From Chelatococcus sp. HY11 (GTDB lineage Bacteria > Pseudomonadota > Alphaproteobacteria > Rhizobiales > Beijerinckiaceae), in NCBI RefSeq assembly GCF_018398335.1, contig NZ_JAHBRX010000001.1:2844001-2908000 (forward strand): a stretch of 64,000 nt of DNA. Reading direction: 5' to 3'. Both the position numbers and the translations under genes were made by a program. Below are positions 8,772-55,205 of this stretch, in pieces. Within the stretch, counting starts at the first letter, position 1, and each line of letters opens with the position of its first letter. The notes below the pieces were generated by a model that made no database searches, had not been told where the DNA came from, and was given only the letters and a program-made list of their open reading frames with translations.

Positions 8772-8774
8772 GCC

Positions 8775-10602: not shown

Positions 10603-10615
10603 CGGGCATAGGAGG

Positions 10616-36840: not shown

Positions 36841-37019
36841 TTGGATGCCTGTAAGGCGTCACTCCCGCCCGGGATAATGAGCGAGAAGCCCGCCCAAGGC
36901 CACAGTCAGAGGTCGATCTTACCGAAAATTTGTCTGATGTCCGATGAATAGGCATGCCATCGCAACCGGCTCTCGCGATAAGGGTAAGAGGGCAGCCTCC
37001 TGCCGACAAGATTTCAATT

Positions 37020-37031
37020 CTTGTCTACGAG
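37020..37031. promoter_or_regulatory. Operator-like site upstream of the lyase gene
   Basis: CTTGTCTACGAG agrees at 9 of 12 bases with CTTGTATGCAAG, the reverse complement of the palindrome upstream of tctB. Candidate weak site for the GntR/FCD regulator encoded at 38022-38702. Confidence 0.3.
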
Positions 37032-37114
37032 GATGGTATTTCTGTGTACATCAATGCGACAGAACCCTAGAACTAAGCCTTGATGGCAACGGGTCTTGTT
37101 ACAGGAGCCTTCAC

Positions 37115-38020
37115 ATGAGCCGACGCTCGACGTTCCGGGAACTCGTCGATGACCGGAACTTGCTGGTGATGCCGGGGGCCTATGACGGGCTTTCGGCGCG
37201 TATCATCGAGGCGGAAGGATTCCATGCCCTCGTCGCCGGGGGCTATGCGGCGATCGGCTCGATGATGGGCGAGCCTGACGGTGGCCAATCGAACATGCGT
37301 GACATGGTCGATCATTACGCCCGTATCGTCGGCGCCGTCGAAATCCCCGTCTATGTCGACGCGGATACCGGCTTCGGCGGTGTGCACAATGTCGCGAAGG
37401 CGGTTCGTGCTCTTGAGGCGACAGGGGCGGCCGGTCTCTTCTTCAGCGACCAGGTCTTTCCTAATCGCTGCGGTTATTTGCCGGGCAAGCAGGTCGTACC
37501 GGTCGAGGTCATGTTGGCGCGCATCGCGGCCGCGCTCGATGCCAGGACGGACGCGCACTTCTTCATCGGCACGCGCACAGATTGCCTAAGCCTGACGGGG
37601 CTCGACGATGCGATCGAGCGCTGTCAGATGTTCGTCGAGGCCGGCGTTGACATGGCCAAACCCCAGGGTGCCGATACGCGCGCGCAGATCGCCCGTTCGA
37701 TGGCGGAAATACCCGGCCCCCATTTCGCCACGCTGTCACAGGCGGCCGGTAACCATCCAACAGGCCTCGAGGGAATGCGAGAGCTGGGGGTCGCGGCCGT
37801 CACGATGCCATCGATCAGCTTGTTTGCGGCGGCTCAGGGTGTGCGCAGGGCAATTGCCAAGCTGGCAGCGACCGGGAGCGCGGCTGATCTCGCGGATCAG
37901 CTCATGCCACTACCAGAGTACTATGAACTGGTCGGGTTAGACGCGTTCCAGTCCAGGGAGAAATCCTACGACGATCGCGCTGCCGCCATCGTCGCGCGGC
38001 GGAAGCGGGCCAGGATTTAG
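37115..38020 (+). CDS. PEP mutase / isocitrate lyase superfamily lyase
   Basis: 301 residues with the superfamily TIM barrel. Visible features are LLVMPGAYDGLSARIIEAEG, the metal-binding IPVYVDADTGFGG, the gating loop FPNRCGYLPGKQVVP with the general-acid Cys (the usual following His is Tyr), and FFIGTRTDCLSLTGLDDAIE. Members cleave 2-methylisocitrate, dimethylmalate or oxaloacetate to give pyruvate, or rearrange phosphonates. No phosphonate genes are nearby. With a LeuCD-type hydratase in the same island, cleavage of an alkyl-substituted malate to pyruvate plus an acid is the best guess. ACAGGAG precedes the ATG. Confidence 0.87.
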   Translation: MSRRSTFRELVDDRNLLVMPGAYDGLSARIIEAEGFHALVAGGYAAIGSMMGEPDGGQSNMRDMVDHYARIVGAVEIPVYVDADTGFGGVHNVAKAVRALEATGAAGLFFSDQVFPNRCGYLPGKQVVPVEVMLARIAAALDARTDAHFFIGTRTDCLSLTGLDDAIERCQMFVEAGVDMAKPQGADTRAQIARSMAEIPGPHFATLSQAAGNHPTGLEGMRELGVAAVTMPSISLFAAAQGVRRAIAKLAATGSAADLADQLMPLPEYYELVGLDAFQSREKSYDDRAAAIVARRKRARI

Positions 38021-38926: not shown

Positions 38927-39400
38927 ATGTCACGACTTGGCAGCATCGTCCGCGACGGGGATATCGTTTCCGGCGCTCTCCTGGCGGCGTTGGGTACCTA
39001 CATCATTTCAAGGGCTTCCACCTGGGACTATATGACCGCGAACGGGCCGGGACCTGGCTTTTTCCCCCTGTGGTACGGCATCTGTATCGTGGCGCTGTCG
39101 CTGGCGCTGGTCGGACACGCTCTTTTCAAAGGCATCAGCGAGACTCATGAGCCAATCGACTGGCGGGGCGTTGGCCGTGCCATCGTCACCTGGCTCGCCT
39201 TCGTCATCGCGACGGCTCTGATGCCCTTTCTCGGCTTCGTCATCGCCTTCACGCTGCTTTGCCTCTGCCTGATCCACATCGTCTTCCGGCAGCCACTGCT
39301 GCGGGCAATCGTGGCGTCCGTGGCGATCACCGCGGTCTTCAAGCTCATATTTGTCGTCTTGTTGCAGCTCGATCTGCCCATCGGCCCGCTAGGTATCTAA
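38927..39400 (+). CDS. tctB: Tripartite tricarboxylate transporter small membrane subunit
   Basis: 157 residues with four hydrophobic segments. SGALLAALGTYIISRASTWD and GPGPGFFPLWYGICIVALSL give the TctB start with its conserved PGFFP motif. TctB, TctA and the periplasmic TctC form a secondary transporter for di- and tricarboxylates and other organic acids. It precedes tctA by three bases. An AGGGGGG ribosome site lies before the ATG. Confidence 0.92.
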   Translation: MSRLGSIVRDGDIVSGALLAALGTYIISRASTWDYMTANGPGPGFFPLWYGICIVALSLALVGHALFKGISETHEPIDWRGVGRAIVTWLAFVIATALMPFLGFVIAFTLLCLCLIHIVFRQPLLRAIVASVAITAVFKLIFVVLLQLDLPIGPLGI

Positions 39401-39403
39401 ATC

Positions 39404-40915
39404 ATGGACATTATCAACGGGCTCGCCCATGGCTTCGGCATCGCGCTGGTGCCGCAGAACCTGCTCTGGTGCTTCGTCGGGTGCTTTCTGGGAACCGTCG
39501 TCGGAATTCTGCCGGGCCTCGGACCCGCGGCGACGATCGCCATCTTGATGCCCCTCACACTGAACATGGATCCAGCCGGCGGCATCATCATGCTGACGGG
39601 CATCTACTACGGCGCCAAATATGGGGGCTCGACAACATCGATCCTGCTCAACATGCCGGGCGAGTCGAGCTCGGTCGTGTCCTGCATCGACGGTTACCAG
39701 ATGGCGCGCAACGGGCGTGCCGGCGCGGCGCTCGGCATCGCGGCGATCGCGTCCTTCATCGCCGGCACCGTGGGCATCGTGCTGCTCACGCTCGTCGCCC
39801 CGGCGGTCGCCCGCTTCGCACTGTCCTTCTCGGCGCCGGAATATTTCGCGTTGATGGCCTTCGGCCTCTCGCTGGTTGTCCTGCTGTCGGGAGCCTCGCT
39901 GCTCAAGGGCCTGCTCGCGCTGCTCGTTGGCCTGTGGCTATCGACCATCGGCATCGATCTCTTCTCCGCGCAGTCACGCTTCACGTTCGGCCGCAGTGAA
40001 CTTCTCGGCGGGCTCGACTTCGTCGTGATCGCCATCGGTGTCTTTGCCATCGCGGAAATCCTGACCACCATCCAGCACCGGCAGGAAGGCACGCTGATTC
40101 CCGTGCCGAAGGGCTTCCGCAATCTCCTGCCAAGCCGCGAGGAGTTGAAGGCGTCGCGCTTCGCGTTCGTGAACGGCTCGTTCACGGGATTCATCATCGG
40201 CGTGCTGCCGGGAGCCGGGTCGGCGATCGCATCCTTTATCGCCTATGGCATCGAGAAGGCTGTCTCGAAGCGCAAGGAGATGTTCGGCAAGGGGGCGCCG
40301 GAAGGGCTGGCAGCGCCGGAAGGCGCGAATAACGCGGATACCGGCGGCGCACTCGTTCCCCTGCTGACACTCGGCATCCCGGGCGGCGGCACCACCGCCA
40401 TTCTGTTGTCGGCGCTCGTTCTCTGGGGCATCCGTCCCGGGCCACTGATGATCACGGAATCACCGGATATCTTTTGGGGCCTCGTTGCCTCCATGTATGT
40501 CGGCAACGTCGTCCTGCTTCTTCTCAACCTGCCGCTCGTTCCGCTCTTCGCGCAGCTCTTGCGCGTGCCGACATGGATCCTGTTTCCCGTCATCTTCGGC
40601 CTGTCGATCATCGGGGCTTACAGCGTCTCGGAGCGCATCTTCGACGTCGAACTCCTGGCGGCCTTCGGTCTGCTCGGCTTCCTGATGGCGAAGACGGGTT
40701 TCCCGAGCGCACCGCTCATCCTCGGCTTTGTGCTTGGCGACGCGATGGAACGCGCGCTACGCCAATCGCTGATGATGTCGCAGGGCGATCTCACGACCTT
40801 CTTCCAGCGTCCCATCTCGCTGGTCCTACTGATAGCGGCGGTCGTCATCCTGCTGTTGCCGCTGGTCAGCTGGTTCAATCGTGCCCGTGTCCGGGCCATC
40901 AGCGAAGGCGCGTGA
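39404..40915 (+). CDS. tctA: Tripartite tricarboxylate transporter large membrane subunit
   Basis: 503 residues with about eleven membrane helices. The family motif is seen twice: CFLGTVVGILPGLGPAATIA near residue 30 and FTGFIIGVLPGAGSAIASFI near residue 265. YYGAKYGGSTTSILLNMPGE and NNADTGGALVPLLTLGIPGG are also characteristic. It is the translocating subunit; substrate choice is set by TctC. Second gene of tctBAC. Confidence 0.95.
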   Translation: MDIINGLAHGFGIALVPQNLLWCFVGCFLGTVVGILPGLGPAATIAILMPLTLNMDPAGGIIMLTGIYYGAKYGGSTTSILLNMPGESSSVVSCIDGYQMARNGRAGAALGIAAIASFIAGTVGIVLLTLVAPAVARFALSFSAPEYFALMAFGLSLVVLLSGASLLKGLLALLVGLWLSTIGIDLFSAQSRFTFGRSELLGGLDFVVIAIGVFAIAEILTTIQHRQEGTLIPVPKGFRNLLPSREELKASRFAFVNGSFTGFIIGVLPGAGSAIASFIAYGIEKAVSKRKEMFGKGAPEGLAAPEGANNADTGGALVPLLTLGIPGGGTTAILLSALVLWGIRPGPLMITESPDIFWGLVASMYVGNVVLLLLNLPLVPLFAQLLRVPTWILFPVIFGLSIIGAYSVSERIFDVELLAAFGLLGFLMAKTGFPSAPLILGFVLGDAMERALRQSLMMSQGDLTTFFQRPISLVLLIAAVVILLLPLVSWFNRARVRAISEGA

Positions 40916-40947
40916 AGCTTACAAACAAGTATCCATAGGAGGAACGC

Positions 40948-41931
40948 ATGAAACTCTCGGCCTTGCTGGCGACGGCGGTCGTCGCCACCCTATCGTTTAC
41001 CTCTGTATCGACAGCGCAGGCACAGTTTACGCCGAAACGCCCACTGGAAATCGCGGTCCACGCCGGCCCGGGATCGGGCAATGACGTTTTCGCCCGTGCC
41101 TTGATCACGGTGATCGACAAGAACAAGCTCTCGCCCGTTCGGATTCAGGTCGCCAACAAGCCCGGCGGCGGCAGCACGACCGCGGCCGCCTATCTGGCAA
41201 GCAAGGCCGGTAATGAGAACACGTTGGGCGTGTTCACGAACATCTGGATAACGGATCCACTCGTCTCCGCCGAAGCGACGAACCCGCTAACCAGCATGAC
41301 GCCTGTCGCGCTGGTCATCCGCGAGCCCGGCCTTATCGCGGTCAAGGCCGATTCGCCCTACAAGACGCTTCAGGACTTCATCGACGCCGCCAAGGCCGCG
41401 CCGGGCAAGCTCAGCCAGTCCGGCGGGTCGGTTCTCGCGCGTGAGAACGTTCTGCGCCAGTTGCTGATGGGCGCGACCGGTGCTGACTGGCAGTTCATAT
41501 CGTTTCCCTCGGGCGGCGAGCGGCTTTCGGCGTTGCTTGGCGGTCACGTCAACATGATGATCGTGGAGCCCGGTGAGGCGACTTCCCAGGTCCGAAGTGG
41601 CGCGATGCGCGTGATCGCGGCCGTGGCCGACAAGCGGCTCCCGGGCTTCCCTGATGTTCCGACGCTCCAGGAGGCGGGCTTCAACATTCCGAACCTGCCG
41701 CAGATCCGCGGCATCGTCGCGCCTCCCGGCACGCCGAAGGAAGTGGTCGCGTATTACAGCGACATGATCCGGAAGGCGACCGAGACGCAGGAATGGAAGG
41801 ACTATGTAGCCGAAAACGGCTTCGAGCCTGCCTTCACGACTCCCGAGGAAACCTTGAAATTCATTACCGAATACACTGAACAGCTGCGAGGTATCCTTGA
41901 GAAGGCCGGTATCAAGCTCGTCGCACGCTGA
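40948..41931 (+). CDS. tctC: Tripartite tricarboxylate transporter substrate-binding protein (Bug family)
   Basis: 327 residues. A signal peptide of about 29 residues ends with STAQAQF. The mature protein has HAGPGSGNDVFARALI at the ligand loop, VANKPGGGSTTAAAYLASKA, a middle hinge and PGTPKEVVAYYSDMIRKATE. It is secreted to the periplasm and delivers an organic acid to TctAB. In place of the usual sequence after PGG it has GSTTAA, which is normal for Bug proteins. AGGAGG lies before the ATG. Confidence 0.93.
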   Translation: MKLSALLATAVVATLSFTSVSTAQAQFTPKRPLEIAVHAGPGSGNDVFARALITVIDKNKLSPVRIQVANKPGGGSTTAAAYLASKAGNENTLGVFTNIWITDPLVSAEATNPLTSMTPVALVIREPGLIAVKADSPYKTLQDFIDAAKAAPGKLSQSGGSVLARENVLRQLLMGATGADWQFISFPSGGERLSALLGGHVNMMIVEPGEATSQVRSGAMRVIAAVADKRLPGFPDVPTLQEAGFNIPNLPQIRGIVAPPGTPKEVVAYYSDMIRKATETQEWKDYVAENGFEPAFTTPEETLKFITEYTEQLRGILEKAGIKLVAR

Positions 41932-41953
41932 GGCTTTCTCGTACAACGTCAGC

Positions 41954-41990
41954 AGCAGCCAGTTCCACGGGGAGCTGGCTGCTTCTCTTT
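41954..41990 (+). terminator. Rho-independent terminator after tctBAC
   Basis: A 13-bp stem with one G-T pair (AGCAGCCAGTTCC with GGAGCTGGCTGCT, loop ACGG) followed by TCTCTTT. It separates the transporter operon from the metallo-beta-lactamase-fold gene. Confidence 0.85.
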
Positions 41991-42010
41991 ATCCTTCACG
42001 CGAGGCAGGA

Positions 42011-42898
42011 ATGCTGTGCCAGTCCCACCAGTTCGGTGACCTCCGCATCACGCGTGTCCTGGAGATGTCCGGGCCGACCCATGATCCTGCCTTCCTTTTT
42101 CCGGATCTGCCGGCGATCGCGCTTCAAGACGAAACCGGCTGGCTCGCTCCTCATCACTATCAGCCGTCGATCGACCGGCTCGTCGTCACGATTCAAATCT
42201 GGATGGTGCAGTTCGGCACGACCACCGTGCTCATCGACCCCGGTATCGGCAACGGAAAGACCCGCCCCGCCGAACGCCAGAATAGGCTGAATACGCTTGC
42301 TCCCGCCTGGCTCGCCGCAGCGGGCGCGACTGGGGACAGCGTCACGGACGTCATCCTGACCCATCTGCATGCTGACCATGTCGGCGGGTGCACGCTTATG
42401 CAGGACAGTGCCTGGCGGCCGGCGTTTCCCAATGCGCGCCACCATATCCCGCATGCGGAATTCGACTATGTGCGCGAGCGTTACGTGGCGGGCGAGACAG
42501 GCATCAACAGCGGTGCCTGGGCCGACAGCGTGATCCCGCTCATCGATGCCGGCCTTGTCGACCTCTTCGCGCCGGGCGATCACCTGCTTGGGCGGTTCGA
42601 GGTCGAGGATGCGGCCGGCCACACACCCGGGCAAGTCACGCTGTGGCTGAACGACGGGTCAGGCGGAAGCGCCGTCTTCGCGGCCGACATCATGCACAGT
42701 CCGCTCCAGATCCGCTTTCCCGCGCTCAACACCCGCTACTGCATCTGGCCCGAGCGCGCCCGGCAGACGCGGGCCGCGTTCCTGGCGCGCGCGGCGCGCA
42801 GCCGGGCCATCGTCATGCCCATGCATTTCGGATGGCCCTACCGCGGGCTTGTCGCGCGAAACGGCGACGATTACGCCTTCACGCCGCTTGACTGGTGA
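42011..42898 (+). CDS. Metallo-beta-lactamase-fold hydrolase
   Basis: 295 residues. The zinc motif THLHADHVGGC (HxHxDH) lies near residue 118, followed by later ligands in EDAAGHTPGQVTLW, FAADIMHSP and MPMHFGWPYRG. The arrangement matches lactonase or N-acyl-homoserine-lactonase-like MBL hydrolases. A start at 42011 with GAGGCAGG is supported. In this island it could open a lactone or thioester. Its last 28 bp overlap the convergent alpha/beta-hydrolase gene. Confidence 0.9.
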   Translation: MLCQSHQFGDLRITRVLEMSGPTHDPAFLFPDLPAIALQDETGWLAPHHYQPSIDRLVVTIQIWMVQFGTTTVLIDPGIGNGKTRPAERQNRLNTLAPAWLAAAGATGDSVTDVILTHLHADHVGGCTLMQDSAWRPAFPNARHHIPHAEFDYVRERYVAGETGINSGAWADSVIPLIDAGLVDLFAPGDHLLGRFEVEDAAGHTPGQVTLWLNDGSGGSAVFAADIMHSPLQIRFPALNTRYCIWPERARQTRAAFLARAARSRAIVMPMHFGWPYRGLVARNGDDYAFTPLDW

Positions 42899-43674
42899 AG
42901 ATCACGAAGGGCGCCGGCGACTGCTTCCGGCGCCTGCAGGATCATGATGTGACCGCTTTCAACGACACGCAGGTCGCAATTCGCGATTCCTGCGACGTCG
43001 GCACGGACGTGGCCCACCGGACGCAACAGGTCGCGTGTGCCGGCCAGCACCAGCACCGGACACTCCAGCTTCGACTTCGCCTCCGTGACGTCGACGTTGG
43101 CCAGCATGGCGTTTGCCTGCTCATAGCAGAACGGATCAATGGCCAGGAAACGGGACCGGTATTCGTCGTAGACTGCGCGGTCCGTGATCGTGTCTTCCGG
43201 GAAAGAGCGCTCAAATACAACGTCGATGATCAAGCGCATACCTTCGCGGCAGGCCTTCGCACCGCGTTGGAGGAGATAGTCTCGCCTGTCGGGATTGGCT
43301 TTCAGCGCCGGCGAGCACAGCAGAAGCTGCTCGACGTCCCGGCCCAGCAGGGCCGCGAGCTCAACGGCGATCGCGGCGCCGGAGGCTATGCCGGCGATCG
43401 TGTAGGGGGCATCGAGGCCAGCCGCCGCAATCACGGCAAGGGTATCTGCCGCCATTGTCGTGACATCGAAGGGCTGCCGGACCTTTTCAGAAAGCCCCGC
43501 GCCGCGCTGGTCCGCGCGCAACACGCGATAGCCGTCACCCAGCCGCTTCAAGACCTCGTCCCAGCTGTCCGATGTCCCGGACAGCTCGTGGATCAGGACC
43601 AGGCTCCTGCCGGATCCCGAGAGCTTGTAATGGAGGCTGACGCCATCGCGTTCCGTCCAGTGCAGTTCCGTCAT
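42871..43674 (-). CDS. Alpha/beta-hydrolase-fold protein, nucleophile Ser replaced (1)
   Basis: 267 residues with the full alpha/beta-hydrolase outline: RSLVLIHELSGTSDSWDEVL, YRVLRADQRGAGLSEKVRQP, ELAALLGRDVEQLLLCSP, a late VLVLAGTRDLLRPVG (acid Asp region) and VVESGHIMILQAPE (His). The nucleophile elbow reads TIAGIASGAAIAVEL; aligned with G-H-S-x-G-G the nucleophile is Ala. The oxyanion HG is HE. It resembles 3-oxoadipate enol-lactonases but probably is not a standard esterase. Its ATG overlaps the stop of the upstream paralog (ATGA). Confidence 0.83.
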   Translation of the reverse strand: MTELHWTERDGVSLHYKLSGSGRSLVLIHELSGTSDSWDEVLKRLGDGYRVLRADQRGAGLSEKVRQPFDVTTMAADTLAVIAAAGLDAPYTIAGIASGAAIAVELAALLGRDVEQLLLCSPALKANPDRRDYLLQRGAKACREGMRLIIDVVFERSFPEDTITDRAVYDEYRSRFLAIDPFCYEQANAMLANVDVTEAKSKLECPVLVLAGTRDLLRPVGHVRADVAGIANCDLRVVESGHIMILQAPEAVAGALRDLHQSSGVKA

Positions 43675-44477
43675 GCCGCCCTCGCAGGGAGGATACGCTC
43701 CATGAAGGAGAGTAGTTGCGCGGCTATGAAATCCGGCTGCTCCGGCAAGGCGGCATGGCTGGCATGGGGTATGACGACCACGGTCACGCGATCGCCCAGC
43801 TCTTTCTTGAAGATCTCCGCGTCCTCGACATGGGCGAGGGGATCGGTATCCGGCTGCAGATAGAGCAACGGCCCTGTGCCGCCGGCATAGTCCTCGCTGC
43901 GCGGCGTCTGGTCACCGGCGTGTCGCTGGGCGGCCAACACCTCCGGATACCAATCCTTCAACCAACCCGTCGGGTCGTTGCCGGGCGCGAAAAATGCAAA
44001 ACGCAGCGCTTCGAGCCTCTCATCGTCCGGCAGGTCGGCATTGGCGCTTGCCCGGATAGCCGCGCGCATCTTCGGGCCGCTGGGGGCAATGCCGACATTG
44101 GCCGCGATGATCGATATGCCACTGATCAGATCCGGCCGATCGGTCGCGAGCATGCGCGTTACGCGGTTGCCAAAGGCATGTCCCGCCACGAAGGCCGGAC
44201 CGCCGCCGTAGGCCTCGATCACGGTCGCGATATCGGCGGCACAATCGTGCAGGTCTTTGTAAGGAGCCGGCGACCTGCTGCGGCCGATGCCGCGAGGCTG
44301 CGGCCGCAGCACGGTGTAGCCGCGCTCCGCGACGATGCGGGCGATGGGATCGAAGTCCGTCGCCGGGCGGCCAAGCGACGGCAGCATGACGACCAGCGGA
44401 CCTTCGCCCTGTTTCAGAACTTCAAGCGTGGCCTCCGCGCCGCGCGTGATCATCTCGGCCGATACGGTTGCGCTCAT
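43671..44477 (-). CDS. Alpha/beta-hydrolase-fold protein, nucleophile Ser replaced (2)
   Basis: 268 residues. LVVMLPSLGRPATDFDPIAR, YTVLRPQPRGIGRSRSP, then the elbow FVAGHAFGNRVTRML, where the canonical GHSxG Ser is Ala (codon GCC). A late Asp region (LLYLQPDTDPLAHVED) and IPHASHAALPEQPDF with His remain. GGGAG five bases before 44477 supports this start; an ATG at 44495 overlapping the AbrB-like stop has no ribosome site. It may catalyse a reaction that does not need the Ser, such as an addition, lyase or cofactor-free oxygenation step. Part of a four-gene operon. Confidence 0.83.
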   Translation of the reverse strand: MSATVSAEMITRGAEATLEVLKQGEGPLVVMLPSLGRPATDFDPIARIVAERGYTVLRPQPRGIGRSRSPAPYKDLHDCAADIATVIEAYGGGPAFVAGHAFGNRVTRMLATDRPDLISGISIIAANVGIAPSGPKMRAAIRASANADLPDDERLEALRFAFFAPGNDPTGWLKDWYPEVLAAQRHAGDQTPRSEDYAGGTGPLLYLQPDTDPLAHVEDAEIFKKELGDRVTVVVIPHASHAALPEQPDFIAAQLLSFMERILPARAA

Positions 44478-44491
44478 ATCGTCTCCCATCG

Positions 44492-45538
44492 TCATGGATT
44501 TCTGTTGTCGAAAAGCTGGAACATCAGCGGCGCCAGAACCATCGTGCCGACGATCCGGCAGATCTGGGTCGTGACGACAAAGGCGACCTCGAAGCCTATC
44601 GCATAGGCCAGCAGCGTGATTTCCACCAAACCGCCGGGCGACAGCGCCAGGATGAGGGTCGGCACGTCGAAGCTGACGAGTTGGCTGCAGGCGAACGCCG
44701 TCGCGACCGCGAGGCCGATCAGCACGAGTGACCAAAGCGCGCCCTGCACCATGGTGCGGCCGAGCTCACGATGAGTGGTGCCGCCCAATCGCGAGCCGAC
44801 GATAGCGCCGATCGTCACCTGAACCAGCGCGACCAGCCACGCTGGCGGCTGCGCGCCTGTCAAACCGCTCGCATGTGCCACGGCGCTGAACAGCAGCGCG
44901 GCGACCATCGCACCGCCCACCAAACGGAAGGCATTGCGCGTGAAATATCCGCCAACAGCGCAGGCGCCAAGGATGAGCCAGTCGAGAGGCGCGATAGTGG
45001 CGCTATGGCTGGCGGTGACCGCGACATTGCCACCGTTCACGGGCCCCGCGACAAGCGCCTGGACCAGGAAGGGCACGCAGAAGATGACGGTGATGACCCG
45101 TGCCGAATGAACAAGCGCGAGCTTGCGACTGTCCGCGCCGAGCGAGCCTCCCAACAGCGTGAGTTCGCCGAGGCCTCCGGGAAAGCTCGCGAAGAGTGCC
45201 GTCCCCCGATCGAATTTGCACAGACGCTGGAAGTAGAGCCAGCCAAGGAACGCGGTGGCCAGCGTGTAAAGGAGCATCGCGGGGATGATCGGCCACCAGA
45301 GAACAATGTTGCCCAGCACCTCCGCCGTGAAGGTGCTTCCAGCCAACACGCCGACGACCGGGCGCGCGACGTGCCGGACCTGGGCTGGAATGAGGAACGG
45401 GCTGCCCAAGGCCGCAGCGATCCCCACGGCGGTCAGTGAGCCGAGCGTCCAGGGCAATGGCAGATGGAGGAACAGAAATACCGCGCCGCCACAGGCTCCG
45501 ATCAGCAACGCGCCGATTGCGTGGAGAACGGCCGGCAT
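44492..45538 (-). CDS. AbrB-family (COG3180) membrane permease
   Basis: 348 residues with about ten membrane helices in two repeats. VRHVARPVVGVLAGSTFTAE and FASFPGGLGELTLLGGSLGA in the first repeat are echoed by LALSPGGLVEITLLAYAIGF in the second; the paired PGGL-E motifs are the family hallmark. Older annotations call it ammonia monooxygenase, but it looks like a transporter. It may import or export an intermediate of the island. It starts two bases past the stop of the upstream CMD-family gene. Confidence 0.88.
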   Translation of the reverse strand: MPAVLHAIGALLIGACGGAVFLFLHLPLPWTLGSLTAVGIAAALGSPFLIPAQVRHVARPVVGVLAGSTFTAEVLGNIVLWWPIIPAMLLYTLATAFLGWLYFQRLCKFDRGTALFASFPGGLGELTLLGGSLGADSRKLALVHSARVITVIFCVPFLVQALVAGPVNGGNVAVTASHSATIAPLDWLILGACAVGGYFTRNAFRLVGGAMVAALLFSAVAHASGLTGAQPPAWLVALVQVTIGAIVGSRLGGTTHRELGRTMVQGALWSLVLIGLAVATAFACSQLVSFDVPTLILALSPGGLVEITLLAYAIGFEVAFVVTTQICRIVGTMVLAPLMFQLFDNRNP

Positions 45539-45540
45539 CT

Positions 45541-46110
45541 TCAGCCGGCCGCCTCAAGCGTCGCGTCGACCGACTCCTGCCAGTCGGGCTGCTCGGCATC
45601 TGCATAGCCGGCATGGATAACCATGGCGAGCAGCCCATAATACCCGCACAGGCAGACGATCTCGAGAGCCCCCTCACGCCCGAAAACCTCAGCGACCCTT
45701 TGAAATTGCGCGTCATCCAGCTTGCCGGAATGGAGCACGGACCGGGCGGCTTCGAGCGCGACGCGCTGCGCATGTGTGAGCGCCTCAACGTTTTCTCCCC
45801 GTGCCAGCCCGGCCAGCGCCGTGACATCCAACCCGGCCTTGCGGGCCAGTGGCGCATGAGCGAGCCATTCATAGGGACAACGCCAGAATTCGGCCGCCGC
45901 GAGGGTGACCAGCTCCCGCACATCCGCCGCCACAGCCCCCTTGAAACGCAGCCATTCACCGAGGTCGGCAACGCGTTGCGCGAGCTCGGGCGCCGGCAGG
46001 AGATTGAGGAATGGCCGGCCGATCTTGCCCCGTGCGCTGCCCCGCAGCTGTTGCGCGAAGGCTTGCTGTCGCTCGTCCCACTCGGTCTCGGCGATCTCGA
46101 ATCGGCTCAT
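45541..46110 (-). CDS. Carboxymuconolactone decarboxylase (AhpD-like) family protein
   Basis: 189 residues, helical CMD fold. The core is ELVTLAAAEFWRCPYEWLAH with Glu, one Cys and the YEW-x2-H motif; the AhpD CxxC pair is absent, so it belongs to the non-peroxidase branch. LVIHAGY-like end (LLAMVIHAGYADAEQP) is also typical. The start at 46110 is set by GGAGG six bases upstream. First gene of the operon with the AbrB-like permease and two alpha/beta-hydrolase proteins; together with those it resembles pcaC/pcaD neighbours, but residue changes argue against true protocatechuate enzymes. Confidence 0.87.
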   Translation of the reverse strand: MSRFEIAETEWDERQQAFAQQLRGSARGKIGRPFLNLLPAPELAQRVADLGEWLRFKGAVAADVRELVTLAAAEFWRCPYEWLAHAPLARKAGLDVTALAGLARGENVEALTHAQRVALEAARSVLHSGKLDDAQFQRVAEVFGREGALEIVCLCGYYGLLAMVIHAGYADAEQPDWQESVDATLEAAG

Positions 46111-46198
46111 GCGCATCCTCCACACCCGCGGAAAGCTTGTACGGGAAATCGATCGATTAATACACTAGTCGGAGTTTTAAAAATGCACTATCATAAAT

Positions 46199-46220: not shown

Positions 46221-46955
46221 ATGCTCACAATTGCCGATAGCGGACCGCGACTGGTCAGGGTGGAAGCGGCTATCGCCTGGATTGAACTGGGCGGGGCCAA
46301 CACCGGAAATATGCTGACGCGTCAACAGATGACGATGCTCAGTGAGGCGATCCGCTTGGCGGGCGCTGATCCCGATGTCTCGGTTGTCGCAATTGCGCCC
46401 GGAGGGGGGGCTTTCTGCCTCGGCCGCAATGGCAAGGGAGAGCCGGCGGAAGCCCTCCCTTGGGACGCGCGCCAGAGGCAGATGGGTGTGACGCTGGACG
46501 TCTACGACGCCATCGCGGCGTGTCCAATCCCTGTCGTCGCTTGTGTCCAAGGCAACGCCATCGGCTTCGGCGCGGCGCTCGCCGGAGGATGCGACATTAC
46601 CCTTGCGGCGCGCAGCGCGCGTTTTGCCTTGCCTGAGATCAAGCATTCGATTCCGGCGACGCTCGCCATGTCCGCGCTCATACGCAAGATACCCGAGAAG
46701 GCTCTGGCGCATCTGATCTATTCAGGCGAGGAGATTTCAGCTGAGGACGCCCTGGCGCTTGGTCTGGTGAGCAAGGTATTCCCGGCGGAGACCTTCGAGG
46801 AGAGTTGCTCCGCCTATCTCCTAGCTCTCGCGTCGCGCAAGCGGCTGCTGCTGGAGACGATCAAGCGGTATATCGGTAAAGCGCCCCAGCTATCCCCTGA
46901 AATGGCTTCCGAATATGCCGGTACGCTGATGGCTCTGGTAAAGCCGAGCCTATAG
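46221..46955 (+). CDS. Enoyl-CoA hydratase/isomerase family protein
   Basis: 244 residues of the crotonase fold. The oxyanion loop is VVAIAPGGGAFCLGRNGKGE, followed by VACVQGNAIGFGAALAGGCD and FALPEIKHSIPATLAMSAL, which carries one likely catalytic Glu. The second Glu typical of hydratases is not clear, so isomerase, hydrolase or lyase activity on a CoA ester is also possible. It leads a plus-strand run with the LeuC/LeuD-type genes and faces the CMD-family operon. Confidence 0.87.
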   Translation: MLTIADSGPRLVRVEAAIAWIELGGANTGNMLTRQQMTMLSEAIRLAGADPDVSVVAIAPGGGAFCLGRNGKGEPAEALPWDARQRQMGVTLDVYDAIAACPIPVVACVQGNAIGFGAALAGGCDITLAARSARFALPEIKHSIPATLAMSALIRKIPEKALAHLIYSGEEISAEDALALGLVSKVFPAETFEESCSAYLLALASRKRLLLETIKRYIGKAPQLSPEMASEYAGTLMALVKPSL

Positions 46956-47020: not shown

Positions 47021-48427
47021 ATGGTCGCCCGAACGCTCTTTCACAAGATCTGGGAAGCCCATCTCGTGGCGCGGCGGATCGACGGTCGCGAGATCATCTA
47101 CATGGACCGCAATATCGTCCATGAATTGCACGGCCCCAAGGCATTCGAGAAGCTGCGCAAGGCGGCGCGTCGGGTTCGGCGGCCGGACCTGACCTTCGCG
47201 GTTCAGGACCACACGATCTCCAGCCAGCCTGACCGCGACGACACGACGAACCCGGAAGGCACGCCGTTCCTGCGGGCGCAACGCGCTGGTGCGGCTGAAT
47301 TCGGCTTTCGCATTTTTGACGTCGGTGATCCCGACCAGGGCATTTCCCACGTCATCGGGCCCGAACTCGGCATGGTGCTGCCGGGCGCGACCCATTGCGT
47401 GCCGGATAGTCACGCGGCAACGGTCGGTGCGCTCGGCGCGCTGTCCTTCGGCTGCGGAACGACCGAGCTCGAACATGTGCTGGCGACCCAGGTCCTCGCG
47501 ATGAAGAGGCCGAAGACCATGCGCATCAACCTCGAGGGCAGGTTGCAGCCGCATGTGACGGCAAAGGACGTGGCCCTGCATATCGTCGGCACGCTCGGCG
47601 TCTCCGGGGCAAACGGGCACGCCGTGGAATATGCCGGCCCCGTGGTGCGTGCCATGGGCATCGAAGCGCGCATGACGTTGTGCAACCTCACTGTCGAGAT
47701 GGGTGGACGCAGCGGATTCGTCGCGGCCGATGAGACCACTTTGTCCTGGCTGGAGGGAAGGCCGTTCGCCCCGGTCGGCGAGGACTGGAACCGCGCCCTG
47801 GCCTACTGGCGCACCATGCATTCGGACGAAGGCGCGCGATTCGACCGGGATCTCACAATCGACTGCAGCGCGCTTGAGCCGCAGATTACATGGGGCATTA
47901 CGCCGGGACAGGTGATCGGGATCCGGGACAGCGTCCCGGCTTCGCTCGGCGAGGAGGCTTCCGACCAGCACGCGTTCACCAAGGCGCTGACCTACATGGA
48001 CCTCCAGGCCGGCGAACCGCTGCAGGGCCTGAAGGTGGACAGGGTCTTCATCGGATCCTGCACCAACGGCCGTATTCCTGACCTGCAGGAGGCGGCCGCC
48101 ATCGTGCGTGGCCGCAAGGTCGCTGAAGGCGTAGTCGCCATGATCTCGCCAGGCTCGACGATCGTGCGCCGCGAGGCCGAGGCCCTTGGCCTTGACACCG
48201 TCTTCCGCGATGCGGGTTTCTACTGGGCGGAATCGGCCTGTTCGATGTGCGCAGGTGGAAACGGCGATCGCGGGCGTCCCGGGGAACGGGTGATTTCAAC
48301 GACGAACCGCAATTTCGAAGGCCGGCAGGGTCCCGGTGTGCGCACCCATCTGGTGAGCCCGGGAATGGCCGCAGCGGCGGCCATCGCCGGCGCCATCGTC
48401 GACGTTCGCCAACTTGCGGAGGCGTAA
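47021..48427 (+). CDS. LeuC/aconitase-family hydratase, large subunit
   Basis: 468 residues of the 3-isopropylmalate dehydratase large-subunit type. The [4Fe-4S] ligands are in FIGSCTNGRIPDLQEAA and CSMCAGGNGDRGRPGERVIS; THCVPDSHAATVGALGALSF and TNRNFEGRQG are conserved. The enzyme adds or removes water on a substituted maleate/malate. No leuB or leuA is near, and a carboxylate transporter and pyruvate-forming lyases are, so a catabolic substrate (dimethylmaleate, citraconate or similar) is more likely than leucine synthesis. CAGGAG precedes the ATG. Adjacent to the small subunit. Confidence 0.9.
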   Translation: MVARTLFHKIWEAHLVARRIDGREIIYMDRNIVHELHGPKAFEKLRKAARRVRRPDLTFAVQDHTISSQPDRDDTTNPEGTPFLRAQRAGAAEFGFRIFDVGDPDQGISHVIGPELGMVLPGATHCVPDSHAATVGALGALSFGCGTTELEHVLATQVLAMKRPKTMRINLEGRLQPHVTAKDVALHIVGTLGVSGANGHAVEYAGPVVRAMGIEARMTLCNLTVEMGGRSGFVAADETTLSWLEGRPFAPVGEDWNRALAYWRTMHSDEGARFDRDLTIDCSALEPQITWGITPGQVIGIRDSVPASLGEEASDQHAFTKALTYMDLQAGEPLQGLKVDRVFIGSCTNGRIPDLQEAAAIVRGRKVAEGVVAMISPGSTIVRREAEALGLDTVFRDAGFYWAESACSMCAGGNGDRGRPGERVISTTNRNFEGRQGPGVRTHLVSPGMAAAAAIAGAIVDVRQLAEA

Positions 48428-49057
48428 ATGCAGGCTTTCACGACGGCGACCGGTGCGGCCGTCCCACTGCTCGAGGACGATATCAACACGGACGAGATCT
48501 CGCCGATCCAGCTCGCCCGCAAGCTTCAGCCCGACTATCGCAAAATGCTCTTCATGCGTGCCCGCTGGGACGACAAAGGCGAGCCCGTGCCGAGCCATGT
48601 GCTGAATCAGCCGCAATTCCAGAATCCGGCGATTCTGGTAACGGGCGCCAATTTCGGTTGCGGCAGCTCTCGCGAAGCCGCGGTCTGGGCGCTTCTCGCC
48701 AATGGTATTTCCTGCGTCGTGGCACCGAGCCTCGCCGATCAGTTCCGCGAGAATTGCCTGCAGAATGGCGTGCTGCCGATAACCCTTGACAAGGCGAGCT
48801 TCGCCACCCTGGCCAAGCGTGTCGTAGACGCCGACGGCGCGCCGTTCACCGCCGACCTTGAAAGCCAGACCCTCTCCGGGCCCGGCGGCGACCCTATCCC
48901 CTTCGCGATACCCGCCGCGGAACGATTGGTCCTTCTCGAAGGCCTGGACGACATCGGCCTGACGTCCAAACACTTGCCGGACATCGAAGCCTGGGAAGCC
49001 CGGACCGCAGCCGAGACGCCGTGGTATCAAAACGCCCGCGATGGACGCATCCCGTGA
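48428..49057 (+). CDS. LeuD/aconitase-family hydratase, small subunit
   Basis: 209 residues. AVPLLEDDINTDEISPIQLA is the swivel-domain start and GANFGCGSSREAAVWALLAN the substrate loop, with PSLADQFRENCLQNGVLPI after it. It starts at the base after the large-subunit stop, so the two are coupled. The usual LeuD residues that contact the isopropyl group cannot be judged by eye. End of the catabolic island. Confidence 0.92.
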   Translation: MQAFTTATGAAVPLLEDDINTDEISPIQLARKLQPDYRKMLFMRARWDDKGEPVPSHVLNQPQFQNPAILVTGANFGCGSSREAAVWALLANGISCVVAPSLADQFRENCLQNGVLPITLDKASFATLAKRVVDADGAPFTADLESQTLSGPGGDPIPFAIPAAERLVLLEGLDDIGLTSKHLPDIEAWEARTAAETPWYQNARDGRIP

Positions 49058-49588: not shown

Positions 49589-49618
49589 TTGACACTCCAT
49601 GCATTCGGAGTCCAGAAT
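49589..49618 (+). promoter_or_regulatory. Sigma-70-like promoter of the oxygenase operon
   Basis: A perfect -35 TTGACA (49589-49594) and a -10-like CAGAAT (49613-49618), 18 bp apart. It lies 32 bp before the oxygenase start and is followed directly by an inverted repeat. Confidence 0.55.
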
Positions 49619-49619
49619 T

Positions 49620-49636
49620 CTGTATCCCGTATACAG
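49620..49636. promoter_or_regulatory. Inverted-repeat operator candidate at the oxygenase promoter
   Basis: CTGTAT and ATACAG arms with a 5-bp spacer (CTGTATCCCGTATACAG). Located just after the -10 box, where binding would block initiation. The GTAT/ATAC core suits a GntR/FCD regulator, and one is encoded in the same operon (58005-58769). Confidence 0.55.
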
Positions 49637-49649
49637 AGGTGGGCAGATC

Positions 49650-50912
49650 ATGGATTTTTCACTCAGCGCCGAACAACGCGAATGGGTTGAACGGGCCCGC
49701 GCGCTCGGCCCCCTGCTCCAGGCCAATGCTGACAGGTACGACCGGGAAGCCGCCTTTCCCGAAGAGAACTTCGTGGAACTGAAGAAGCAAAAATTCCATC
49801 TTCTGCAGGTTCCCAAAGAATTCGGCGGCTTCAACCCGCAGCGGCGCGGAAGCCTGGGAATGACCCAATTCGCAGTTGCTGAAGAACTTGCACGTATATG
49901 CCCAACAACTGCCTGGAACCTGTTGATTCACTTCCACCAGGTCGGTCTTGTCAGCCGCATGGGCAGCAAGGCTCAAAAAGAGAGGTGGCTTGGCCAGATC
50001 GTCAACGACGATGCCTTGATGGGGTCTTTGGGCAGCGAGGTCAATCCACGTCAGTTCAAGGCAGAGAACGTTGCGACGAAACTGACCTTCGATTCTCTCT
50101 TCGAGCCGGTCGATGGCGGCTTTCGGGCCACGGGCGAGAAGCATTTCTGCTCGATGGCGCCGGCAGCCGACCTCCTCGCCTTCTGGGCTCTCGCCCCCGG
50201 GGCGAAAAGCAATGGCGAAGGTCTGGTCATTTCGATCGTGCCGCGCACCGCGGCCGGCCTCACCTTTGACGACAGCTGGAGCGAATCCATCGGCCTGCGC
50301 GGCACGGTCTCCTGGACCGCGAAACTGGATAACGTGTTCATCCCCTGGCAGGACGTCATGGGCGAGCCGGGCGACTTCGTTCAGAAGGATCCCTACACCT
50401 ACGAGTGCTCGCACGCCGCCCATCTCGTTGGCTGCGCTCAGGGCATCGTCGACAACATCATCGAGTTCATCAAAGCCCGGAACTACCTCAGCCGCGACGA
50501 AGTGCTGATGTATAATCTCGCGGAAATCGAGTCCGGCATCCAGGCCGCTCGCGCATCCTACATGTATGCCGTGTGGCTATGGGATCAGGAACGCTTTGAC
50601 GAGGCAATCCTCGCATCATATCGTGCGCTGCACACGTCCAAGAAAGTGGCCCTCAACGCAGCCGACAAGGCCTTCGAGATCTGCGGCGCACGCGCGCTGT
50701 TTACCTTCCATCCCTTCGAGCGCTTCTGGCGCGAAGTGAAGGCCAGCATGCTGCACACACGCGATACGCAGCTGATGGGACAACTTGCAGCAGGCATTCT
50801 CGACGGAGGGCGTCAATTCTCAAAAACAAAGTATGGTCAAAAGCTTGATCAGCCGAAGACATGGCGTGATTTTGGCTTCAACCCGCAGGAAAAGATTTCT
50901 GCTATCGCGTAA
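49650..50912 (+). CDS. Flavin-dependent monooxygenase of acyl-CoA dehydrogenase fold
   Basis: 420 residues. Start MDFSLSAEQREWVERARALG, helical N-domain, then the beta-domain with DALMGSLGSEVNPRQFKAEN and FRATGEKHFCSMAPAADLLAF, ending with a C-terminal four-helix domain (ICGARALFTFHPFERFWREV, then LHTRDTQLMGQL). The acyl-CoA-dehydrogenase catalytic Glu is not evident, and the type-2 C-domain with the final HTRD stretch is typical of two-component oxygenases (HpaH, DszC, HsaA type) that use reduced FMN/FAD from a partner. A flavin reductase gene lies 4.3 kb downstream in the same run, supporting this reading. Confidence 0.82.
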   Translation: MDFSLSAEQREWVERARALGPLLQANADRYDREAAFPEENFVELKKQKFHLLQVPKEFGGFNPQRRGSLGMTQFAVAEELARICPTTAWNLLIHFHQVGLVSRMGSKAQKERWLGQIVNDDALMGSLGSEVNPRQFKAENVATKLTFDSLFEPVDGGFRATGEKHFCSMAPAADLLAFWALAPGAKSNGEGLVISIVPRTAAGLTFDDSWSESIGLRGTVSWTAKLDNVFIPWQDVMGEPGDFVQKDPYTYECSHAAHLVGCAQGIVDNIIEFIKARNYLSRDEVLMYNLAEIESGIQAARASYMYAVWLWDQERFDEAILASYRALHTSKKVALNAADKAFEICGARALFTFHPFERFWREVKASMLHTRDTQLMGQLAAGILDGGRQFSKTKYGQKLDQPKTWRDFGFNPQEKISAIA

Positions 50913-50947
50913 ATAGTCGGTATTCTCATCAATAACAGGGGAACACA

Positions 50948-52036
50948 ATGACCGATAAGACGCATTCTGATGGCACAACCCGCCGATCGACCTATTCACG
51001 CCGGTCGGTCATAGGCGGCATCGCGGTTGGAGCGGCGGCGATCGCCGCTCCTAATGTCATCCGCGCCCAAAGCGGCGGCCGTGTTCTGGTGCGGACCTCG
51101 GGAGGGTCGTACCAGGATGCATTGCAAGCCGGCACCTGGAACAGTTTCACGCAGAAAACCGGCATCGAGGTTGTCGGCGTCGCGGCCAATACCGGCAAGT
51201 TGCTGGCTATGGTGGAGGCCGGATCACGTGAGCTCGATATTGTCGAGGGCAATGCCGTCGCCATCCTGACGCTTCAGTCCAAAGGCGCACTACAGCCCTT
51301 GGACGTATCGCGCTTCGAATACACCGACCCCAAAGATATCGGCACGGTGGGGCCAGACTTCATCAGCTATGCCTCTTTTGCCGAGGCTCTTGTCTACAAC
51401 ACGGATGCCTTCCCGAAAACCCATCCGACGGACTGGAAGCAATTCTGGGATGTGAACAGCTTTCCCGGCAAGCGGATGCTGCAGGATGCAAAGGCCATCG
51501 CGCCCAACCTCGAATTCGCGCTTCTCGCCGACGGTGTCCCGGTGGAGCAGCTCTATCCGCTGGATATCGATCGCGCCTTTGCCAAGCTCAAACAGATCAA
51601 ACCGCATATCGTGAAATTTTTCGATAGCGGCGCGCTCGGCGCATCCCTTCTGGCGGAAAAAACCGCGGTCCTGGGAAGTCTCTGGACCAATCGCGTGGAG
51701 GCCCTTCGCAAAGGCGGAGCGCCGCTGGCGGTCGAATGGAACCAGGCGATGCGTCTCACGGAATATACCGCCGTGCTGAAGAACGCTCCCAACCGCGACG
51801 CGGCCTTGCGCCTTCTCGACTACTCATCCAGCCCCGAGGCGCAAGCCAGGACATTGCCGCAAATCGGGCTCAGCCCCGAAAACAAGCGTGCGTTCGAATA
51901 TATATCTCAAGATGTCGCCGAGACCCTGCCGACCTTCCCGGCGATTGCCCAGAAGGGCTTCGAACAGAATGCCGACTGGTGGTTGAAGAACAGAGCGCAG
52001 GTCGCAACCCGCTGGGAAGAGTTTCTTCTCGGATGA
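50948..52036 (+). CDS. Tat-exported ABC transporter substrate-binding protein (PotD-like)
   Basis: 362 residues. The N-terminus has a twin-arginine signal: YSRRSVIGG followed by a hydrophobic stretch and cleavage near RAQSGG. The mature protein is of the polyamine/iron-type binding family, with VLVRTSGGSYQDALQAGTWN, a variable hinge, DVNSFPGKRMLQD and a closing LPTFPAIAQKGFEQNADWWL. Tat export implies that the protein folds before secretion. It works with the ATPase and two permeases that follow. It starts 35 bp after the oxygenase gene. Confidence 0.9.
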   Translation: MTDKTHSDGTTRRSTYSRRSVIGGIAVGAAAIAAPNVIRAQSGGRVLVRTSGGSYQDALQAGTWNSFTQKTGIEVVGVAANTGKLLAMVEAGSRELDIVEGNAVAILTLQSKGALQPLDVSRFEYTDPKDIGTVGPDFISYASFAEALVYNTDAFPKTHPTDWKQFWDVNSFPGKRMLQDAKAIAPNLEFALLADGVPVEQLYPLDIDRAFAKLKQIKPHIVKFFDSGALGASLLAEKTAVLGSLWTNRVEALRKGGAPLAVEWNQAMRLTEYTAVLKNAPNRDAALRLLDYSSSPEAQARTLPQIGLSPENKRAFEYISQDVAETLPTFPAIAQKGFEQNADWWLKNRAQVATRWEEFLLG

Positions 52037-52246
52037 AGCGTCGTGGCAGTGCGCCGCCATCGCGGCGTACTGCCACCGCTCGTGAACAGAGCGAAGACTC
52101 TAGGGCTGAAAGCCCTGCCACTCCAATGCTGACCCGGTTTACATTGAAGTCATGCGGGTCATCGCCGGCCTTGGCGGCACATTAACACCTGACTTCCGCT
52201 CCTTTCACGTCTCGACGCAGCCAGTCCATTTTGAGAGCAGCAGGGT

Positions 52247-53395
52247 ATGTCGATGAGCCACATGCAGGACGGAGCAGGCGGAACCCCCATCGTCCTCGAA
52301 AATCTTTGGAAAACTTATGCCAGCTTCGTGGCTGTGAGCGGAATTGACCTCTCCGTCGGCGCAGGCCAGTTCTGCACGGTTCTCGGCCCGAGCGGTTCGG
52401 GCAAGACGACCACATTGATGATGATCGCCGGTTTTGTCGCGCCGACCCGTGGCCGCATTCTTGTCTCCGGCCGGGACATCGCGGCGCTTCCACCGCAGAA
52501 GCGTGATCTCGGTGTCGTATTTCAGAACTATGCGCTTTTCCCCCACATGACAGTCTTCGACAATGTTGCCTTTCCGCTTGTCATGCGTCGTGTCCCCCAG
52601 GCGGAAATCGCCCAGCGTGTCGCGCGGATGCTTGAAACCGTGGAGCTCGCGGGCCTTGGCAAACGGTATCCGCGTGAATTGTCCGGTGGCCAGCAGCAGC
52701 GCGTCGCCCTGGCGCGCGCGCTTGTGTTCGAGCCACGCGTCCTCTTGATGGATGAGCCCCTGGGCGCGCTTGACAAGAAACTGCGCTCATCCCTTCAAAT
52801 CGAATTGAAGGCTCTGCAACGCCGCCTCGACGTCACCGTGATCTACGTCACCCATGATCAGGAGGAGGCCCTGACCATGGCTGACCAGATCGTCGTCATG
52901 CAGGGCGGGCGTATCGAGCAGAGCGGTTCACCGGAAGATCTCTATGATCGCCCCGCGACCGCATTTGTCGCCGGCTTCATGGGCGACACAAACCTTGTGC
53001 GCGGCGTCGTCATGGCGACGCATGCCGACGGAACCTTGCGCATCGACCATCCGACCGGACGTCGGATCATCGCCCGCGCCAACGGCTTCCAGGCCGGGGA
53101 CCATGTCGCAGCGTCGCTGCGGCCTGAAAGTCTCAGCATCGAGAGCAACGACGGCGCGGACGAGCCGGAGAATGCCTGGGAGGGGCGTATAGCAGCGGTC
53201 ACCTACCTCGGCGACGCCATTCGATACCATGTGGCCGTGGGCGAGAACCGGCCGGCGCTCATGGAAACACTCGTAGTCAAGGCCGCGCGCCAGAGCATGG
53301 AACATCGACGATTTGCCGAAGGCGATGCGGTGCGTGTGCGGTGGTCGCGGGCCGACGCCCGCATCCTGCCACCGGCTGCTGCCGGAGGGCACTGA
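52247..53395 (+). CDS. ABC transporter ATPase (PotA-like)
   Basis: 382 residues. Walker A is VLGPSGSGKTTTLMMIAG, Q-loop DLGVVFQNYALFPHMTVFDN, signature RELSGGQQQRVALARAL, Walker B PRVLLMDEPLGALDK, switch His VTHDQEEALTMAD. The last 110 residues form a TOBE regulatory domain (HVAASLRPESLSIE). It powers import of the compound bound by the preceding protein. A second ATG lies two codons inside. The 210-bp gap before it is the only large gap within the run and may hold an internal promoter or attenuator. Confidence 0.94.
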   Translation: MSMSHMQDGAGGTPIVLENLWKTYASFVAVSGIDLSVGAGQFCTVLGPSGSGKTTTLMMIAGFVAPTRGRILVSGRDIAALPPQKRDLGVVFQNYALFPHMTVFDNVAFPLVMRRVPQAEIAQRVARMLETVELAGLGKRYPRELSGGQQQRVALARALVFEPRVLLMDEPLGALDKKLRSSLQIELKALQRRLDVTVIYVTHDQEEALTMADQIVVMQGGRIEQSGSPEDLYDRPATAFVAGFMGDTNLVRGVVMATHADGTLRIDHPTGRRIIARANGFQAGDHVAASLRPESLSIESNDGADEPENAWEGRIAAVTYLGDAIRYHVAVGENRPALMETLVVKAARQSMEHRRFAEGDAVRVRWSRADARILPPAAAGGH

Positions 53396-53398
53396 AAC

Positions 53399-54316
53399 AT
53401 GACCCTTCAAGTGGACAGTCAAGGCAGCGTGGGCGTCTCCGAATCCGCAGCGAATGGCACGGTAAATGGTGACGGGACAAAAGCATCGTGGCGCGGCGGG
53501 CAGCTTTGGCTGCTGTTGCCCGCGCTGGCATTGCTGGCGATATTCTTCGCTTATCCCCTGTTTGACGTCGTACTGCGCTCCTTCCGCGACAGCCAGGGCG
53601 GCTTCACAACACAGAACTATGAGGCGTTCTTTTCTCGCGCGATCTACATCCGCGTGCTACTGCTGACTATAGAAATCGCCTTCCTGACGACCGTCTTCAG
53701 TCTTATCGTAGGTTACCCCCTCGCCTACGTCCTCGCCAATTCCGGCCCGACAGTCCGCTCGTTCATGATGCTATGCGTCATGCTGCCGTTCATGACGAGT
53801 ATTCTCGTGCGTACTTACGGCTGGATGGTGATCCTGAGGCCGAATGGCATCGTCAACACTGCCCTGGCGACGCTTGGCTTGGGCGAGATACAGCTCATCT
53901 ACAACCGTGGCGGACTGATGATCGGCATGGTCTATACCATGCTGCCCTATATGGTGCTCACGCTTTACAGCGTCATGCGCGGCATCGACGGGCGCTTCGT
54001 CGCGGTCGCGCAGAGCCTGGGCGCCGGGCGCTGGTCGGCGTTCTGGCGGATCTATTTCCCGCTCAGCATGCCAGGTGTTGCGGGCGGCTCATTGCTTGTC
54101 TTCATTCTGGCGGCTGGCTTTTATATTACCCCCCGGCTCATGGGTGGCGATCGCGACCAGATGTTGGCCTCGATCATCGCGTATCAGGTCGATGTTCTAT
54201 TGAACTTCAACTTTGCTTCCGCGATTGCCGTCATCCTGCTCATCATCACGTTGGCTTGTTTCGGCCTGTATGCCCGTATCGTCGGGCTGAAGCAGCTCCT
54301 TACCAGCAAGGTGTAG
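53399..54316 (+). CDS. ABC transporter permease (PotB-like)
   Basis: 305 residues with six membrane helices after a 35-residue cytosolic lead. LLLPALALLAIFFAYPLFDV is the first helix and the EAA coupling loop is VAVAQSLGAGRWSAFWRIYF with PLSMPGVAGG following. It pairs with the next permease. It starts four bases after the ATPase stop. Confidence 0.94.
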   Translation: MTLQVDSQGSVGVSESAANGTVNGDGTKASWRGGQLWLLLPALALLAIFFAYPLFDVVLRSFRDSQGGFTTQNYEAFFSRAIYIRVLLLTIEIAFLTTVFSLIVGYPLAYVLANSGPTVRSFMMLCVMLPFMTSILVRTYGWMVILRPNGIVNTALATLGLGEIQLIYNRGGLMIGMVYTMLPYMVLTLYSVMRGIDGRFVAVAQSLGAGRWSAFWRIYFPLSMPGVAGGSLLVFILAAGFYITPRLMGGDRDQMLASIIAYQVDVLLNFNFASAIAVILLIITLACFGLYARIVGLKQLLTSKV

Positions 54317-54318
54317 CC

Positions 54319-55116: not shown

Positions 55117-55136
55117 GAAAAGTGACGCCCTTTACT

Positions 55137-55178
55137 TTGGAAGTCCTGGCTTGGAAGTCCTGACTTTCGAAATCCTGG
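55137..55178. repeat. Three 14-bp tandem units before the flavin reductase
   Basis: TTGGAAGTCCTGGC, TTGGAAGTCCTGAC and the more diverged TTCGAAATCCTGGC follow one another without gaps. They fill the 89-bp gap between the permease and reductase genes. Confidence 0.8.
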
Positions 55179-55205
55179 CGCCAGAACGCGCAATGGAGAT
55201 CAGCA

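Follow-up and report, generated by a model that had tools for sequence, protein, structure and literature searches.

The window, a 64,000-nucleotide stretch of the Chelatococcus sp. HY11 genome, contains two adjacent reverse-strand genes, P0001 and P0002, whose open reading frames share 4 bp (ATGA) and whose products are alpha/beta-hydrolase-fold proteins with an alanine at the nucleophile position (Table 1). Both belong to an operon in the order CMD-like gene, AbrB-family gene, P0002, P0001, which faces a metallo-beta-lactamase-fold gene as well as a transcription unit that includes crotonase and LeuC/LeuD-like genes, while genes for a PEP-mutase-type lyase and a tripartite tricarboxylate transporter (TctBAC) lie nearby. 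A block homologous to TctBAC is found in loci L073 and L075. For the metallo-beta-lactamase-fold gene, a role as 4-pyridoxolactonase is unsupported, as its PDB matches are organophosphorus hydrolases and AHL or dihydrocoumarin lactonases. Downstream of the LeuCD-like genes, positions 49599-55733 encode a DszC/SfnB-type acyl-CoA-dehydrogenase-like flavin monooxygenase, ABC transporter components and a flavin reductase, possibly representing a two-component monooxygenase of the P0001/P0002 pathway or of a neighbouring one.

Table 1. Genes and residues at the P0001/P0002 locus, in window coordinates.
Feature	Position	Strand	Length	Remark
PEP mutase / isocitrate lyase superfamily lyase	36944..38020	+		PrpB-like, below cut-off
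Tripartite tricarboxylate transporter TctB, TctA, TctC	38927..41931	+		named from protein sequence
Metallo-beta-lactamase-fold, lactonase-like protein	41897..42898	+		recurrent P0001-family neighbour; likelier start 42011
P0001, PcaD-like alpha/beta-hydrolase-fold protein	42871..43674	-	267 aa	elbow Ala (AGIASGA)
P0001 H242	42949..42951	-		triad histidine kept
P0001 R218	43021..43023	-		just after catalytic Asp; 100% in Ala family, mostly Thr in Ser relatives
P0001 D215	43030..43032	-		triad acid kept, after strand 207-212
P0001 A97	43384..43386	-		codon GCC, nucleophile position
P0001 E30	43585..43587	-		oxyanion loop; 92% in Ala family, Ser/Gly in Ser relatives
P0002, alpha/beta-hydrolase-fold protein, second family	43671..44477	-	268 aa	elbow Ala (AGHAFGN)
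P0002 H241	43755..43757	-		triad histidine kept
P0002 D212	43842..43844	-		triad acid kept
P0002 A101	44175..44177	-		codon GCC, nucleophile position
P0002 R37	44367..44369	-		PSLGR motif; invariant in Ala and Thr subfamilies
AbrB-family membrane protein (PF05145)	44492..45538	-		P0001/P0002 operon
Carboxymuconolactone decarboxylase (CMD)-family protein	45541..46125	-		first gene of the operon
Crotonase (enoyl-CoA hydratase/isomerase family)	46221..46955	+		divergent from CMD gene
LeuC-like aconitase-family large subunit	47021..48427	+
LeuD-like small subunit	48428..49057	+

The initial annotation described P0001 and P0002 as adjacent hydrolase-fold proteins in which alanine replaces the nucleophilic serine, and the open reading frames, the GCC codons and the alignment of the serine column all agree with this description. 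Both proteins match the Pfam families Abhydrolase_6, Hydrolase_4 and Abhydrolase_1 well above cut-off and carry the fold and domain of the alpha/beta-hydrolase superfamily, and an HMM-guided alignment with serine-containing relatives places A97 and A101 in the Ser column. The structural models proposed as a check put each alanine at the strand-helix elbow: in the AlphaFold model of P0001, which has a pLDDT of 81.1 and is of moderate quality with only five sequences behind it, A97 sits at the turn between strand 91-96 and a helix starting at 99, and in that of P0002 (pLDDT 95.9) A101 lies between strand 95-100 and helix 102-113. The acid and histidine of the triad, whose regions had looked retained, are present in both proteins and invariant family-wide (D215/H242 in the P0001 family, D212/H241 in the P0002 family). 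An elbow nucleophile (Ser, Asp or Cys) is absent from P0001, from P0002 and throughout their families. Among the PF00561 proteins of the host genome with a resolvable elbow, 17 present Ser and two Asp, and Ala occurs only in P0001 and P0002; one further elbow is unreadable and one apparent 'Ala' (L236) is a misaligned VAHSYG. Another residue might serve as the nucleophile, for instance S34 in the oxyanion loop of P0002, which is invariant in a 48-sequence alignment, or a shifted serine. This reading is highly improbable: the S34 position is occupied by Gly in 14% of a broader set, and Ser98 of P0001 is dismissed as a register-shifted nucleophile because its position varies between V, S, A, L and I in the family.

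The alanine is conserved in both families. All relatives of P0002 with at least approximately 39% identity present Ala in a GHA[FY]G motif, and every member of the P0001 clade has Ala. Within the taxonomic family of the host, P0002 relatives down to 41% identity read GHAFG or GHAYG, and the P0001 relatives that keep Ala form one block that extends down to about 30% identity. In a scan of 84,980 species, 80/80 fetched P0002 relatives, from Alpha-, Beta- and Gammaproteobacteria, Actinobacteria and one Rokubacterium, contain Ala, a result that is partly biased by the use of GHA[FY]G in one of the two search patterns. A class-wide profile search, run for each of the two families, is therefore the cleaner test: for the P0002 family, all 14 of 14 matches at or above 195 bits present Ala, followed at 78 bits or less by proteins with Ser or Asp; for the P0001 family, matches at or above 241 bits present Ala, and the 27 that come next, none of them above 163 bits, invariably carry Ser. 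The nearest relatives outside the families carry Ser, Asp or Thr and lie beyond a sharp score gap. Orthologs with Ser, named at the outset as a refutation, did not turn up: all close orthologs present Ala. Within the genus, dN/dS ranges from 0.03 to 0.10, and the family-wide Ala together with these low values argues against local decay. Decay of former hydrolases, to which the loss of the nucleophile alone might point, is contradicted by intact reading frames, intact operons, low dN/dS and an Ala that is invariant across Proteobacteria and Actinobacteria, and we give it next to no credence. The proposed selection for a role independent of the serine is borne out by the fixation of Ala over many genera, the low dN/dS and the conservation of new residues around the site. 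On sequence grounds, P0001 and P0002 each represent a separate, undescribed family in which Ala is fixed and the His-Asp pair kept, and no description of such a Ser-less family came up in a literature search. Both proteins are probably working enzymes with a different chemistry in breakdown pathways and not broken copies.

Whether serine was lost once or twice was addressed with a tree of 79 rows from which the elbow columns were left out. Here, the P0001 relatives group together (SH-aLRT 98) within the Ser-containing PcaD-like proteins, and the P0002 relatives make up a second clade (SH-aLRT 99) with a group that presents Thr at the elbow. The cap residue G145 is common to P0001 and its Ser relatives and absent from the P0002 family. 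The AU test rejects an Ala-only clade (p 2e-8) because the Thr rows fall inside it, and it is compatible with a single Ala+Thr clade (p 0.29). The independent loss put forward by the initial annotation is therefore only partly upheld: two separate losses are favoured by the profile scores, by shared features of the cap and by the parsimony tree but are not proven, and we infer independence rather than demonstrate it because the AU test leaves room for one Ala+Thr clade. Whether there was one origin or two, the change to Ala is an ancient property of each family and not a recent loss in this pair. The Thr group, with the motif GKTYG(N), is a more distant sister of the P0002 family that shares its Arg residues (L059:9643-10455, L060:3584-4408, L061:9580-), and some of its copies have an apparent N-terminal leader. 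Tandem arrangements were also observed: genome G204 encodes a P0002-family duplicate (L245:7409-8209, 8230-9018) flanked by ABC substrate-binding proteins of the peptide type, of which duplicate the second copy apparently reads GQAFGN instead of GHAYGN, and at L057:8664-10239 and L058:8908- a Ser-type hydrolase (GLSFGG) adjoins a divergent Ala-type one (GCAIGA), a further Ala/Ser tandem.

Around the altered site, each family presents residues of its own. In the P0001 family these are E30 and R218 (Table 1), of which E30 is not universal, with Gly in Microvirga. The analysed set of the P0002 family shows no variation at R37, D41, R108, H100 and W172; two of these residues, R37 and R108, also occur in the Thr group. 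The positive charges among these residues suggest an anionic substrate.

The gene contexts of the two families in other genomes were surveyed with a crude ORF caller and tblastn probes, with annotation partly by eye, and the following counts are to be read accordingly. Within 7 kb of 86 P0002-family genes, a CMD-like gene is found in about 20 cases, a crotonase in 23 and a 4-sulfomuconolactone-hydrolase-like amidohydrolase in 18; CaiB, GST and acyl-CoA dehydrogenase genes also occur at loci of this family, and because of this heterogeneity a single reaction for all of them is not implied. At four Rhodococcus loci, a catechol 1,2-dioxygenase gene scoring over cut-off lies about 77 bp upstream of the P0002 homolog, and a fifth match is weak. 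In L099, L109, L112 and L116 of this genus (around 7200-10750), an HpaB-type monooxygenase and the catechol 1,2-dioxygenase are directly followed by the P0002 homolog, an arrangement that makes a good system for finding the substrate. In Siccirubricoccus, protocatechuate-dioxygenase genes stand beside the P0002 relative. Neighbours of the P0001 family encode metallo-beta-lactamase-fold proteins, BKACE (beta-keto-acid cleavage) enzymes and 3-oxoacid CoA-transferases, and plasmid pUSP2 of Aminobacter sp. MSH1 (L249:9492-13880) carries the annotated row TctA, TctB, Ala hydrolase, TctC, BKACE and metallo-beta-lactamase-fold protein. The same plasmid has a P0002-family gene (39534-40346) about 30 kb from its P0001-family gene. 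On a Massilia plasmid and in Lichenibacterium, the Ala protein is accompanied by a Ser-containing PcaD-like protein and a CMD gene, and therefore another gene could cover ordinary enol-lactone hydrolysis. The Massilia putida plasmid operon (L250:8989-11816) comprises the Ala hydrolase, a 197-aa protein without Pfam match, the Ser PcaD-like protein and the CMD gene. Both families thus sit in catabolic clusters with ring-fission, lactone and beta-keto-acid genes. The block of the window is found again in Devosia enhydra, and Microvirga antarctica has it in a rearranged form. Devosia enhydra (L073) belongs to another family of the order and has nearly the same cluster, with 84% identity for P0002 and 72% for P0001, a likeness that suggests movement of the cluster by horizontal transfer.

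Regarding the coupling of the pair, the two families co-occur in 5/149 family genomes (Fisher test, p 4e-6 when counted by genome and 0.014 when counted by genus). They are coupled in at least five genera; besides Devosia and Microvirga, neighbouring genes of both families were seen in Lichenibacterium minor and in genome G325, whose pair locus includes thiolase, GST and 3-oxoacid CoA-transferase genes. The coupling noted initially thus recurs, but it is weak as evidence of a heteromer: nearly all of the 80 P0002-family loci are without a P0001-family gene, and many P0001-family loci have no P0002-family gene nearby. An obligate heteromer is rejected as a general explanation, because each family mostly occurs alone. 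This bears on the broader idea that the two proteins are catalytically silent partners, acting in binding, as scaffold, chaperone or regulator, or as a heterodimer with one composite site. The absence of the nucleophile from both, the translational coupling through the 4-bp overlap and the co-occurrence of the families are in line with it, but the invariant Asp and His speak against silence and the mostly solitary families against a heterodimer, leaving this idea improbable.

From conservation and gene context, we infer that the Ser-less families comprise His-Asp enzymes performing non-covalent acid/base catalysis on ring-fission or lactone-type intermediates, a proposal that we hold to be about evenly balanced between right and wrong. 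The His-Asp pair would act as general base or acid with no acyl-enzyme formed, and an anionic substrate would be bound and polarised by E30 and R218 in P0001 and by R37, R108, D41 and W172 in P0002. The resulting chemistry would be of the isomerisation, hydration or C-C/C-O lyase type, with lactone or keto-acid intermediates. In the window operon, P0001 and P0002 would work in sequence on one pathway, not necessarily in one complex, and this pathway would feed the LeuCD-like hydratase and the PEP-mutase-type lyase. More tentatively, and as a possibility that we would not yet bet on, the two families may have evolved separately, each turning from a Ser hydrolase into an acid/base isomerase, lyase or cycloisomerase that relies on His-Asp, and both may have gained a permanent place in ortho-cleavage or beta-ketoadipate-like pathways of a non-classical kind, in some cases within one operon. 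The genome label 'alpha/beta hydrolase' implies for these proteins a Ser mechanism that is closed to them. As conserved families without the Ser, with a clear genetic setting and specific residues to target, the two offer a testable case of a hydrolase fold gaining non-hydrolytic chemistry, and both point to uncharacterised steps in bacterial aromatic or lactone breakdown.

Several known systems share the fold. One of them is represented by the cofactor-free dioxygenases of the HOD/AqdC kind, where AqdC and some others naturally present an elbow Ala with a His-Asp pair and a dispensable Ser (PMC10548524), and an Ala 'hydrophobic elbow' in P0001 and P0002 could likewise favour O2. The acid of HOD, D126, is located 25 residues past S101 (PMC10548524), but the equivalent positions are P122 in P0001 and A126 in P0002, whose families have their acid where it classically lies, after the later strand. 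In addition, the 60 top PDB matches shown for each family profile include neither HOD nor AqdC, and an N-heteroaromatic ring-cleavage context was not seen near the two families, so that a dioxygenase function is very doubtful. The best single-sequence PDB match of P0002 is E-2-(acetamidomethylene)succinate hydrolase (PDB 3kxp, E 1.9e-10; TM 0.79, 21% identity), which differs in its elbow Ser (GHSLG) and matches in sequence only over the N-terminal half. RutD, a putative aminoacrylate hydrolase (TIGR03611; PDB 3v48) from the same broad PcaD-like neighbourhood, shares with P0001 and P0002 the Ala at the nucleophile position (GHALG, confirmed in the E. coli sequence) and the retained Asp and His, and is an example of how a protein with an Ala elbow may still contribute to hydrolysis. 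By analogy, the His-Asp pair could activate water directly on a reactive enamine or enol-lactone, with hydrolysis or hydration proceeding without a covalent step. The P0001 profile matches RutD at 89.7 bits and neighbouring genes act on lactones, but P0001 and P0002 score only 60.4 and 26.4 against the TIGR03611 cut-off of 238.5, RutD falls on a long branch outside both Ala clades, and none of the other rut operon genes (RutA, RutB, RutC) was recognised by eye in the window or the loci read. Direct activation of water is thus rather unlikely, though the strongest rival to non-covalent acid/base catalysis. By profile, the protein of known structure nearest to the P0001 family is PcaD, the 3-oxoadipate enol-lactonase (TIGR02427; PDB 2xua), at 153.7 bits, although neither P0001 (129.2) nor P0002 (34.7) reaches the TIGR02427 cut-off of 255.85. 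Since the RutD and PcaD models are missed widely and the acid position of HOD is not shared, P0001 and P0002 are assigned to the fold superfamily only, as a variant without nucleophile. In fold, PcaD and P0001 are close (TM 0.85/0.87), with the same cap region, Asp and His and an aromatic ring-fission context in common, and they differ where PcaD presents the Ser and P0001 presents Ala, E30 and R218.
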